A DNA stretch of 64,000 bases from Lepisosteus oculatus (lineage: Eukaryota > Chordata > Actinopteri > Semionotiformes > Lepisosteidae), in contig NC_090696.1 of NCBI RefSeq assembly GCF_040954835.1, positions 78,491,722 to 78,555,721 of the forward strand, written 5' to 3'. Shown in pieces: positions 32,165 through 50,104 of this stretch. The notes under the pieces are model-generated. The model did not search any database, was not told the origin of the DNA, and saw only the letters and a program-made list of their open reading frames with translations. Positions within the stretch are counted from its first letter, which is position 1. Each line of letters begins with the position of its first letter. The translations under genes were made by a program, and so were the position numbers.

Positions 32165-32213
32165 ATGAAGATGCGCCTCGCTCTTCGGGTTATGTTGGTC
32201 GGGATCTTATCAG
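32165..32213 (+). other. pdgfra: pdgfra signal-peptide exon
   Basis: The coding part gives a short basic N-terminus, a hydrophobic core ([13 protein letters not shown]) and a phase-1 donor GTTGGT at 32214. It can join in frame to 32556 (Gly junction) or to 36960 (Ala junction), because both acceptors are phase 1. The exact initiator is uncertain: ATG 32147, 32165 and 32171 are all in the same frame. Confidence 0.7.
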
Positions 32214-47200: not shown

Positions 47201-50104
47201 CTGTAATCAAATGTATTATAACTATGTTTGCTTTATTAGAGCTTTGGTTGACAGCTGATGGAGGTGGCAGACCACAGGCAGAGTGCCGCTAGCACTGAGG
47301 AATGGTGGAATTAGCTCGGGGGCTTTCTGCCCACGTTGTACAAGTTCTGATGCAGGAGACAATTAGTTGCACAAATCTTTAATTCTGTAGTGTAGAGAGT
47401 GAACATTGTTGACGTGGTTAGACCACCTCACTTTCACAATATTTCCTCAGTAATCTCTATAACATTGCAACTTTAATTACATTGTATGAAATTTTACGCT
47501 GACAATACAGTCTGTCATGAGTCAGTTCTGTAGTGCTTAGAGTCCAGAGGGTTTTAAGAGTAGATAAGGTTCCTGTGTGCTTCAAAGTCTGTGAGTAAAA
47601 GTAAAAGGACAAAAAAAGCTTTGTACCCAGGGAGCTGTCAAAGAGGTGAAATGACAATGTCATCATTCTGTCTTAATTTGTTTTTAGGTGGAACTCCTTA
47701 TCCAGGCATGGTGGTGGACTCCAGCTTCTACAACAAGATTAAGAGTGGATACAGGATGGCGAAGCCTGAACATGCCACCCCTGCCATGTAAGTTGGACTC
47801 ACCTTGCTCTTGTCTTTAGATCTGCTCCCTGCCCGCTCGGGGGTTTTGTATCTTTTGCCTACCACTGGTTCATGGTCCTCTACCTTCCATCCGCCTTTAG
47901 ATACGAAATGATGACGAAGTGCTGGAGCAGCGAACCAGAGAAGAGGCCTTCCTTCCACAGCCTGAGTGAGATGGTGGCGTCTTTATTGCCTCCGGAATAT
48001 AAGAAGGTGTGTGCCTCTGCCTTTCCCTGCTCAGTGACGAGAATGAAGGCTTCTTTCAACCGTGAGATTCAAATTCATGATCTGAACAGCAAGTAATTCT
48101 AAAATTAAAAAGTAATTAACCATTCTACAGCTTGTTTTACAATGCAATTAAGAATTATGTAATTATTTTCTTATTTGATTATCCTATTCATCAGGAGATT
48201 AGCGCAAACTTGCTCTCTGGCAAGATAAATCATACAGGTAACAGGGGTTTTCTAGTTTTCAACAATGAAACATAATACAATGATCTTAAATCATGTCAAT
48301 GATTTGCAAGCAAATTATTTCACCTTTCATTTATAGTTCTAGTCAGACACCCTGTAATAGTGGTCCATGCCTTGACAAACTTCAGAAAAACCTCACCAAG
48401 CATCAGTAGCTGATGCTGTAATTCCTCAGAGAAAAGTGTATTAGCTCATTGAATGTGATGCCAGCAGATATGTTTGTTGTCTGCAGGTGTGGCCTCATGA
48501 TTGGCAGTGTCTTCTGATTTTTGAGCACTTTCACTGTCCAGCAAACCCTGGCATGACAATGTCAAAATTAAATGTTGAAGTTAGACTGCTGTAATACCTG
48601 GCATTTCTGCATGAGCACAAGCTGACTTCAAACTCCTGACAACCTCAGATGGCCAAAAAAGGGAATAATTGCATGAGCAGTGGATCATGCTCCACCAAGT
48701 CATTTACCATTTCTAGAACTGGAATCACCGCTATTTACAATTTTTTAACATGTTTATTGGTAGAAGTGCATAGTTCTTCAATACTGTGCTTAAAACATAT
48801 ATGATAGATACGCAAATGGATCCAGCAGGAAAGAGAAGAATGCAGAATGTGCAGAATGAGCCCTATGATCCAGCAGTACTGGTTCAAACCTGTATTCAAC
48901 TCTGTGATTACCTGACAGCGATTCTTCAATCAATGGTGCACAATGTGCTGTACAGTTTCCTCAGCTGGAGAGTATGAAACTATTCTGATTACAGTATTTA
49001 ACTCTTAAAGAAGCCAAAGCAGACTGGAAGTAATGCACCTCTCATTTAATCTCATTCAGCATTCCTGCCTTTGCACCAGTCATTAGTGTAAATAAATATT
49101 TCTTGAGATAAGAAGTGAACATTGTTTAATATCATTATGTATTTTTTGGCATTATTATTTGATTATTAGTGTATTATTATTTTGTACTTGTCCCCATGAG
49201 CCAAGCAGCTACAATGAATTGTGATTGTGAGCAATTGTGAGCATTGTAAATGCAGGCTTCATTTCACAACATGTCACACTGTCAAGGCTTATATAGCACA
49301 TGAAGTCTGAAAGAAATGGAATATATCAGAAGGCAGTTTGACAGTGTACTGCTGGAGTTACTGGGGGTTACAAGTACATGTTTGCTCAGTGTTTTGATAT
49401 GGTTTTTGTTTCTACAGAGCTACGAGAAAGTTCACCACGACTTCCTCAAGAGTGACCACCCTGCGGTGACCCGCATGCGCACCGAGTGTGAAGATGCTTA
49501 CATTGGAGTCACCTACAAGAACCACGACAAGTCGAAAGACCGGGAGAGTGGCTTTGACGAGCAGAGACTGAGCTCGGACAGTGGCTACATCATTCCCTTG
49601 CCAGACCTGGACCCAGTCTCAGACGAGGACTTCAGCAAGAGGAACAGACACAGGTAGCCTCTCGTTCTGACCTGAGCTACAGGCACCACCAGTCTGTTCC
49701 TTCTACTGTACTTACTTTAGTACACAAAGGTAATACCAGGGTCCAGTGTAGTAAATTATACTGACAGCCTGTTAAAACCATGCGCAACTAATGTGAAACT
49801 ACAATAAAAACAGGGTAAAATCATGAAAGAAAAACAAAAATCCTTGGGGAAATTTACCAAAGTAAATTAATATTTTCAAGGTGTCTTTGAACGTTTGCTT
49901 CTCAGTCTCTATCAAAGAAAATGAATAATAAGTAAACATTTCATTTTGTTTTCTAGCTCACAGACATCTGAAGAGAGTGCCATAGAGACGGGATCCAGCA
50001 GCTCCACCTTTGTTAAGAGGGAGGGGGAAACTATTGAAGACATTGAAATCATAGATGATTTAGTCATGGATTCAGGAGACCTTGTGGAGGACAGCTTCTT
50101 GTAA
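32165..50104 (+). CDS. pdgfra: Platelet-derived growth factor receptor alpha with nine Ig domains (28 coding exons)
   Basis: Type III receptor tyrosine kinase for PDGF. Exons: 32165-32213, 32556-32849, 33244-33507, 34469-34599, 35540-35702, 36129-36318, 36731-36846, 36960-37271, 37806-38072, 38354-38484, 39600-39768, 40021-40210, 40660-40775, 40859-40985, 41371-41567, 42037-42131, 42417-42549, 42821-42925, 43574-43684, 44001-44154, 44991-45157, 45492-45607, 46503-46625, 46969-47080, 47688-47787, 47901-48006, 49418-49653, 49957-50104. All introns are GT-AG, phases match at every junction, and the sum is 4,422 nt (1,473 aa plus stop). The order is signal peptide, Ig1-4 (upstream copy), Ig1-5, transmembrane, juxtamembrane, split kinase, tail. 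Human PDGFRA has 22 coding exons and 1,089 aa; the extra six exons are a tandem duplicate of Ig1-4. The start at 32165 ([17 protein letters not shown]) follows a CTTCTTGCAG acceptor; ATG 32147 is an in-frame alternative if that acceptor is not used. Gene identity is certain from the kinase half. Whether both Ig sets enter one mRNA is inferred. Confidence 0.9.
32556..36846 (+). repeat. pdgfra: Upstream copy of the pdgfra Ig1-Ig4 exon block (six exons)
   Basis: Six exons of 294, 264, 131, 163, 190 and 116 nt (1,158 nt, exactly 386 codons) encode Ig1 (LNC...FYTC, closing IYIYVP), Ig2 (IPCR...SGTYVCET), Ig3 over two exons (SITCVA...SGVYECSV) and Ig4 over two exons ([29 protein letters not shown]). 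Ig4 lacks the disulfide, as in all PDGF receptors. Boundary phases are 1-1-1-0-1-2-1, the same as the downstream block. Frames are intact with no stop. Sequence is well diverged from the downstream block: about 22 of 38 residues match in the last exon, fewer in Ig1 and Ig2. The first two exons are GC-richer than their counterparts. In PDGFRs, Ig2-3 bind ligand and Ig4 makes receptor-receptor contacts, so a second set could add, mask or displace those functions. Confidence 0.88.
36960..40775 (+). repeat. pdgfra: Downstream (canonical) copy of the pdgfra Ig1-Ig4 exon block
   Basis: Six exons of 312, 267, 131, 169, 190 and 116 nt (395 codons) are collinear with exons 3-8 of human PDGFRA. Motifs include [12 protein letters not shown] and IYIYVP in Ig1, EIPCRVSNP and SGTYVCKT in Ig2, SGVYECS in Ig3, EKGFIQLDP in Ig4, and [15 protein letters not shown] in the last exon. 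That last motif is nearly identical to human [15 protein letters not shown], so this copy keeps the ancestral sequence and the upstream copy is the derived one. It is followed by a short 83-nt intron to the Ig5 exons (40859-40985, 41371-41567). Confidence 0.95.
40859..42549 (+). other. pdgfra: pdgfra Ig5, transmembrane and juxtamembrane exons
   Basis: Exons 40859-40985 and 41371-41567 encode Ig5 ([18 protein letters not shown] to [13 protein letters not shown]) and are single copy. Exon 42037-42131 encodes the membrane span ([20 protein letters not shown]), about residues 910-932 of the nine-Ig form. Exon 42417-42549 encodes the autoinhibitory juxtamembrane region with the paired tyrosines of [19 protein letters not shown], which bind Src-family kinases in mammals. 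All junction phases agree with the mammalian gene. Confidence 0.96.
42821..48006 (+). other. pdgfra: pdgfra split tyrosine kinase domain exons
   Basis: Nine exons encode a complete, apparently active kinase. They carry the glycine loop GSGAFGKV, catalytic lysine VAVKMLK, hinge region TEYCFYGDL, the kinase insert (44001-45157 and onward) with PI3K-binding sites DYMDM and QYVPM and the SHP2 site SYVILSF, catalytic loop [11 protein letters not shown] in [11 protein letters not shown], activation-loop tyrosine NNYVSKGS, and APE in KWMAPESIF. No key residue is missing. Identity to mammalian PDGFRA is very high, which contrasts with the fast-evolving ectodomain. Confidence 0.97.
43752..43839. mobile_element. 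Fold-back MITE-like element inside a pdgfra intron
   Basis: A single arm of the same fold-back family as at 25395 and 53460, including GGAACAAGTTATAGGTTTAT, AACACAACGTTTCGGCCGTG and GAGCCTTCTTCAGGTGTC. It lies only 67 bp after the exon ending at 43684. The second arm is missing. Confidence 0.75.
49418..50104 (+). other. pdgfra: pdgfra C-terminal tail exons
   Basis: The two last coding exons keep the PLC-gamma-type tyrosine sites ([23 protein letters not shown]) and the acidic C-terminus ending DLVEDSFL before the stop at 50102. The preceding intron (48007-49417) is 1.4 kb without other exons. Confidence 0.96.

Follow-up and report, generated by a model that had tools for sequence, protein, structure and literature searches.

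Class III receptor tyrosine kinases are regarded as having a defining architecture with five extracellular immunoglobulin (Ig) domains, and the locus described here raises the question of whether the gene for the platelet-derived growth factor (PDGF) receptor alpha (PDGFRA) of the gar Lepisosteus oculatus departs from that layout and, if so, what the additional domains might do. The gene lies in a stretch of 64,000 nucleotides (nt) (assembly GCF_040954835.1, contig NC_090696.1, positions 78,491,722 to 78,555,721 of the forward strand), called the window below; positions are counted from its first letter unless a chromosome is named. Rebuilding the gene from the raw window gave 28 exons with GT-AG borders throughout, summing to 4,422 nt and translating, once joined, into 1,473 amino acids and a stop with no internal stops, so that the coordinates and single open frame proposed in the initial annotation of this DNA were right. 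The two collinear six-exon blocks that it had described are also present (lengths in Table 1): block 1 (32556-36846) and block 2 (36960-40775) each encode PDGFR-type Ig1-Ig4 and lie 5' of a single set of exons for Ig5, the transmembrane segment (TM) and the kinase. Both have the entry phases 1,1,1,0,1,2 and share exon lengths of 131, 190 and 116 nt. The order along the predicted chain would be signal peptide, block 1 Ig1-Ig4, block 2 Ig1-Ig4, Ig5, TM and split kinase.

Judged by its sequence, the locus is the PDGFRA gene of gar with its Ig1-Ig4 exons duplicated in tandem. In a PDB search the top matches of both blocks were PDGFRA chains. Block 1 scored 264 bits with PDGFRA, 111 with PDGFRB and 96 with VEGFR1, and the corresponding scores of block 2 were 302, 142 and 118 bits. 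The closest sequence to both blocks is PDGFRA, not PDGFRB, KIT or CSF1R, and from Ig5 through TM and the split kinase to the tail the gene is arranged like vertebrate PDGFRA. These bit scores, along with the simulations of stop codons presented below, rule out chance Ig-like open frames. The gene order GSX2 - PDGFRA - KIT, with the same neighbours as vertebrate PDGFRA, is present as well: a GSX2-type homeodomain is found at 4.7-5.0 kb, upstream of PDGFRA, and KIT exons, identified from their PDB matches, are located downstream (C1:78.58-78.60 Mb), with an Ig1 exon near C1:78,580,490, about 25 kb past the end of the window. The order gsh2, pdgfra, kita has been reported in fish (PMC2020491). 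One locus each for PDGFRA, PDGFRB, KIT and CSF1R turned up in the genome, the last named by its position beside PDGFRB, and the stretches of gar PDGFRB, KIT and CSF1R examined have a single Ig block each. A genome search found block 1 once. Further copies elsewhere were considered and rejected, the 30 of the 41 listed matches that fell outside the window being weaker (E 1.9e-4 or worse); three of these were in PDGFRB exons and the others were not examined. The exons, the identities with PDGFRA and the tree described below all bear out the proposal that the Ig1-Ig4 exons of a PDGFRA locus are duplicated in tandem and that the frame stays open over nine Ig domains.

Regarding receptor class, Pfam called general Ig families in both blocks and the tyrosine kinase once (PF07714, E 5.9e-95), the latter over 355 residues against a model of 258 positions, i.e. 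a kinase split by an insert. The family PF25305 (Pfam name Ig_PDGFR_d4) was found once, over Ig5 and TM. There is a single TM, in exon 16, as in class III receptors. Instead of exactly five extracellular Ig domains, nine are encoded by the full exon set, and five would be left if exons 2-7 were skipped, which the reading frame permits.

We think it probable that this gene encodes a nine-Ig PDGFRA in which the inner block 2 binds PDGF and the outer block 1 is a repurposed extension. In such a receptor block 2 would do the ordinary work, holding PDGF in the Ig2-Ig3 cleft and making the Ig4-Ig4 contact near the membrane, and block 1 would be an outer extension in a new use, for example as a spacer, as a cap restricting access of the ligand or in the binding of another partner. 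If the whole block were skipped, the normal five-Ig receptor would result, and splicing could thus switch between nine- and five-Ig forms. This reading builds on the exons, frame, phases, homology, constraint and residue changes observed here, from which we infer that the joined form is transcribed, that block 1 has lost PDGF binding and that it has taken on a new role.

The exon phases are the first point to be weighed. Exons of block 1 total 1,158 nt, a multiple of three, and form a symmetric unit entered and left in phase 1, so that its gain or omission leaves the reading frame intact. The phase-1 end of exon 1 could be joined in frame either to exon 2 (32556) or to exon 8 (36960); the latter splice would result in a five-Ig receptor whose leader is hydrophobic, and a splicing switch is conceivable because skipping block 1 leaves an ordinary five-Ig receptor in frame. 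Exon 7 likewise ends in phase 1, the phase in which exon 14 is entered, making a 7-14 join, with block 1 followed by Ig5, possible in frame. These same phases would suit a gene with alternative ectodomains, whose transcripts carry either block and seldom both, yielding two kinds of five-Ig receptor and no nine-Ig chain. We consider this unlikely: each form would require six exons to be skipped as one unit, and intron 7 (113 nt) is ordinary at its borders, with an acceptor rich in pyrimidines, so that constitutive joining of exons 7 and 8 is the simplest outcome.

It is rather improbable that the locus consists of two genes, one in which block 1 makes a soluble PDGFR-like decoy and another in which block 2 has its own start, e.g. 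the ATG at 36926 in intron 7. The frame of exon 8 is open upstream to this ATG, with a short hydrophobic leader ahead of APSIALHQQ, and one AATAAA/ATTAAA signal is found at 37632, in intron 8. However, the leader residues are encoded by the acceptor's pyrimidine tract and, since such a tract yields hydrophobic codons, may be due to chance, and only a retained intron 7 would close block 1 with a stop. The phase chain is intact across exons 2-8, and a scan for signal exons that could precede exon 8 (ATG between 31,901 and 36,950, length 40-89 nt, donor score at least 6, hydrophobicity at least 2.2) returned exon 1 alone, with three choices of ATG. Within the gene, the CpG-rich stretch at exons 1-2 (32201-33100) is the only one at the thresholds applied, and it is likely promoter-proximal.

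The initial annotation had also raised the possibility of two ligand-binding modules in one chain, and this is where the residues of the blocks matter. In human PDGFRA, L137, Y206, L208 and V242 have been reported to contact PDGF; the changes L137Q, L137K, Y206S, V242K and V242T were selected for retaining another partner in the presence of competing PDGF, and soluble receptors with Y206S or V242K were unable to inhibit PDGF signaling (PMC7329128). When these positions were mapped by alignment, block 1 was found to have Q/G/D/E, all of them polar, charged or glycine, so that hydrophobic contacts are missing from its Ig2-Ig3, and block 2 has T/H/W/I, hydrophobic at two positions. The corresponding residues are N/H/L/L in gar PDGFRB and F/Y/L/V in human PDGFRB, and gap/I/R/A and H/N/I/N in KIT and CSF1R, which have other ligands. 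At positions 206, 208 and 242 the alignment of the blocks with human has no gap close by. Block 2 is predicted to bind PDGF because it keeps two hydrophobic positions, resembles gar PDGFRB and adjoins Ig5, and the changes at all four positions suggest that block 1 has probably lost PDGF binding and probably offers no second ligand-binding site.

A similar picture was obtained for Ig4. The arginine at human position 383, which we take to participate in the Ig4-Ig4 contact, is replaced by glycine in block 1; block 2 retains it, as do PDGFRB and KIT of gar. Together with position 388 the pair reads G/D in block 1, R/D in block 2 and human, R/E in gar KIT and R/Q in gar PDGFRB, so that block 1 lacks the combination of Arg 383 and an acidic residue at 388. 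Dimerization of PDGFRA via Ig4 has been reported (PMC6214970), and open-licence papers listed in a search for the Ig4 salt bridge dealt with other topics. The Ig3 core residues Y288 and D284 are retained in both blocks. It is therefore quite unlikely that the chain holds two working PDGF-binding modules, acting through avidity or on two ligands: block 1 does keep Ig cysteine pairs, tryptophans and the G-x-Y motif, but its contact positions are all changed, the Ig4 arginine is gone and in the tree it sits on a longer branch than block 2 does (1.35 vs 0.87). The earlier idea of two binding modules thus finds no support.

Block 1 is apparently an old copy under selection. Over 386 aligned codons, the comparison between blocks gave dN (nonsynonymous changes per site) of 0.56 and dS (synonymous changes per site) of 2.67, a ratio of about 0.2, with dS near saturation, and the identities at codon positions 1, 2 and 3 were 59%, 61% and 39%. 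In neutral simulations started from block 2 (n=1,000 per rate), the proportion of stop-free copies was 11.7%, 1.4%, 0.1%, 0% and 0% at 0.05, 0.1, 0.2, 0.4 and 0.8 changes per site, respectively, and not one stop occurs in the 386 codons of block 1, at a dS of about 2.7. Block 1 retains the cysteine pairs in Ig1, Ig2 and Ig3 and the tryptophan in Ig1, Ig3 and Ig4, and G-x-Y ahead of the last cysteine position is kept in all four of its domains. There are two N-glycosylation motifs in block 1 and six in block 2. The dS of about 2.7, the dN/dS of about 0.2 and the absence of stops point to long purifying selection, and hence against both an error of assembly and debris of recent origin. An assembly artefact or dead duplicate exons can hardly account for the locus, since blocks that are only 40% identical are no mis-joined repeat or haplotype, and the exons have zero stops and intact splice sites.

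The two blocks share 155 of 386 residues in Ig1-Ig4 (40.2%), block 1 and human PDGFRA 146 of 380 (38.4%), and block 2 and human PDGFRA 163 of 389 (41.9%), while gar and human PDGFRB are identical at 112 of 268 (41.8%; Ig1-Ig3 only). The distance between blocks is therefore about that between fish and human orthologues, and a recent duplication was rejected in view of the 40% identity. The shared exon lengths were likewise discarded as a sign of recency: 131, 190 and 116 nt are found in PDGFRB of the same genome, whose modelled Ig exon phases are also those of the blocks, and these lengths are thus ancestral and silent on when the duplication took place. In a comparison of repeats between blocks, direct repeats were seen in exons, introns showed no similarity beyond short chance-like matches, and breakpoints were not seen.

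In a tree with seven rows, from which FLT3 and VEGFR1 were left out as in the other trees, block 1, block 2 and human PDGFRA formed a clade (support 99/99) within which the blocks were sisters (93/92, not starred as supported). When block 2 or block 1 was held with human PDGFRA, p values of the approximately unbiased (AU) test were 0.040 and 0.047; they ranged from 0.008 to 0.063 when another set of fixed trees was tested with three models, and with the mixture model neither alternative to sister blocks was rejected at 0.05. Per-exon likelihoods favoured the sister grouping by about 3-4 log units in three of the six exons and slightly in one, the Ig1 exon and that for the second half of Ig3 leaning the opposite way by less than 2 log units. 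These results moderately favour, without settling it, a duplication later than the separation from the human lineage, one that happened long ago and probably within the ray-finned line; no date is pressed, given the seven rows and the long branches.

Several observations weigh against a nine-Ig receptor with a PDGF-binding inner block or call for caution. Pfam alone does not give nine Ig domains: no Pfam family was called for Ig1 of block 1, and its Ig2 scored 22.8 bits, below the cut-off of 27, so the count relies on exon-by-exon homology to PDGFRA. Identity in Ig1 is 31.6% between the blocks, and 42.3% and 46.6% for block 1 and block 2 with human; the lower value between blocks (31.6% vs 42.3%) argues against a simple sister pair. 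Part of the measured constraint belongs to block 2, as pairwise dN/dS averages both blocks. Among the contact positions, 137 adjoins an alignment gap and is less certain, and block 2 differs from human at all four, which makes for an imperfect PDGF site. Finally, the in-frame ATG at 36926 may leave room for a separate start of block 2.

With these points considered, the nine-Ig receptor with an outer block in new use can be compared with known systems. Vertebrate PDGFRA has five Ig domains, to which the gar gene adds four through the six-exon tandem duplication, the outer copy being devoid of the PDGF-contact residues. VEGF receptors, of the related class V, have seven Ig domains and match the gar blocks more weakly; they differ in that the extra domains in gar are a copy of PDGFRA Ig1-Ig4 and not VEGFR domains. 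Two VEGF receptor genes of the sea urchin, vegfr-10-Ig and vegfr-7-Ig (PMC6768484), offer a precedent within the wider PDGFR/VEGFR superfamily for varying Ig number, in an invertebrate and with no shared origin suggested. The numbers in their names presumably are Ig domain counts. Soluble splice forms of PDGFR are shortened versions of the five-Ig receptor and not gains of domains. They are cases in which the ectodomain is altered via splicing (PMC10136073). Searches of open-licence papers on PDGFR, Ig domains, gar, bowfin, duplication in fish and class III evolution listed no match whose title or start of abstract mentions extra Ig domains in PDGFRA; as far as these matches go, the literature agrees with the suggestion in the initial annotation that a nine-Ig PDGFRA is undescribed, although an automatic model of this kind may already exist in RefSeq or Ensembl.

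If the proposal holds, a nine-Ig PDGFRA under selection would mean that the class III layout can change, and would make it possible to ask directly how an outer cap, or the spacing of the ligand site from the membrane, affects dimerization, in a fish that is a common outgroup for teleosts. More tentatively, and with somewhat more doubt than belief, the gene may have gained a whole second ectodomain of ligand-binding type outside the original one, retained it over a span of perhaps hundreds of millions of years and shifted its role from PDGF binding to a new one (another ligand, a co-receptor or a cap), with nine- and five-Ig forms switchable by splicing.

Table 1. Position of the elements of the gar PDGFRA gene in the window.
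Feature	Position	Strand	Basis
Upstream in-frame ATG of exon 1	32147	+	sequence
Exon 1: start codon, signal peptide; ends in phase 1	32165..32213	+	exon rebuild, signal-exon scan
CpG-rich stretch over exons 1-2, GC 0.51-0.57, CpG observed/expected 0.85-1.01	32201..33100	.	composition scan
Exon 2: block 1 Ig1, 294 nt	32556..32849	+	PDGFRA alignment; no Pfam family
Exon 3: block 1 Ig2, 264 nt	33244..33507	+	PDGFRA alignment; Pfam match below cut-off
Exon 4: block 1 Ig3 first half, 131 nt	34469..34599	+	
Exon 5: block 1 Ig3 second half, 163 nt	35540..35702	+	
Exon 6: block 1 Ig4 first half, 190 nt	36129..36318	+	
Exon 7: block 1 Ig4 second half, 116 nt; Ig4-motif Arg to Gly	36731..36846	+	
Intron 7 between blocks, 113 nt; in-frame ATG at 36926	36847..36959	+	
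Exon 8: block 2 Ig1, 312 nt	36960..37271	+	PDB match
Exon 9: block 2 Ig2, 267 nt	37806..38072	+	PDB match
Exon 10: block 2 Ig3 first half, 131 nt	38354..38484	+	
Exon 11: block 2 Ig3 second half, 169 nt	39600..39768	+	
Exon 12: block 2 Ig4 first half, 190 nt	40021..40210	+	
Exon 13: block 2 Ig4 second half, 116 nt; Arg retained	40660..40775	+	
Exons 14-15: Ig5	40859..41567 (40859-40985, 41371-41567)	+	Pfam PF25305 here and in TM exon
Exon 16: transmembrane segment	42037..42131	+	
Exons 17-28: juxtamembrane region, split tyrosine kinase with insert, tail, stop	42417..50104	+	Pfam

Some additional features were observed in the window. A stretch resembling a repeat fragment is located in intron 19 of PDGFRA (43757-43850; AACACAACGTTTCGGCCGTGGAGCCTTCTTCAGG). 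Upstream of the gene, at about 3715-5038 on the + strand and within CpG-rich stretches, lies the gene that we take to be GSX2. Between it and PDGFRA, in the place of Pdx2, there is a Pdx-type ParaHox gene (14703-15810, + strand), with a protein motif at about 15024 and a homeodomain with WFQNRR at about 15688; each of its two exon frames is open. The presence of Pdx2 in gar may already be known from the gar genome paper. Pdx2 has been reported as lost in ray-finned fish (PMC4471637, PMC4362833), and gar, contrary to those reports, appears to retain it.

Elsewhere in the genome (G000), two insulin genes were found about 18.6 kb apart in opposite orientation, C11:30518363-30518497 (+) and C11:30537090-30537182 (-), the one on the + strand having a divergent B chain. 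An insulin gene on C11 agrees with gar insulin at 30 of 31 B-chain and 21 of 21 A-chain residues. A search for the Enamelin family, which a gar would be expected to have, gave no match in this genome and none in 14 control genomes. On C14, which at 60 Mb is long for a contig of that number, between 35.09 and 37.09 Mb, many kinase fragments with near-equal scores are present on both strands within 2 Mb, a local expansion of which those at 35095258, 35279703, 35382749 and 35633429, matching positions 101-154, are examples.

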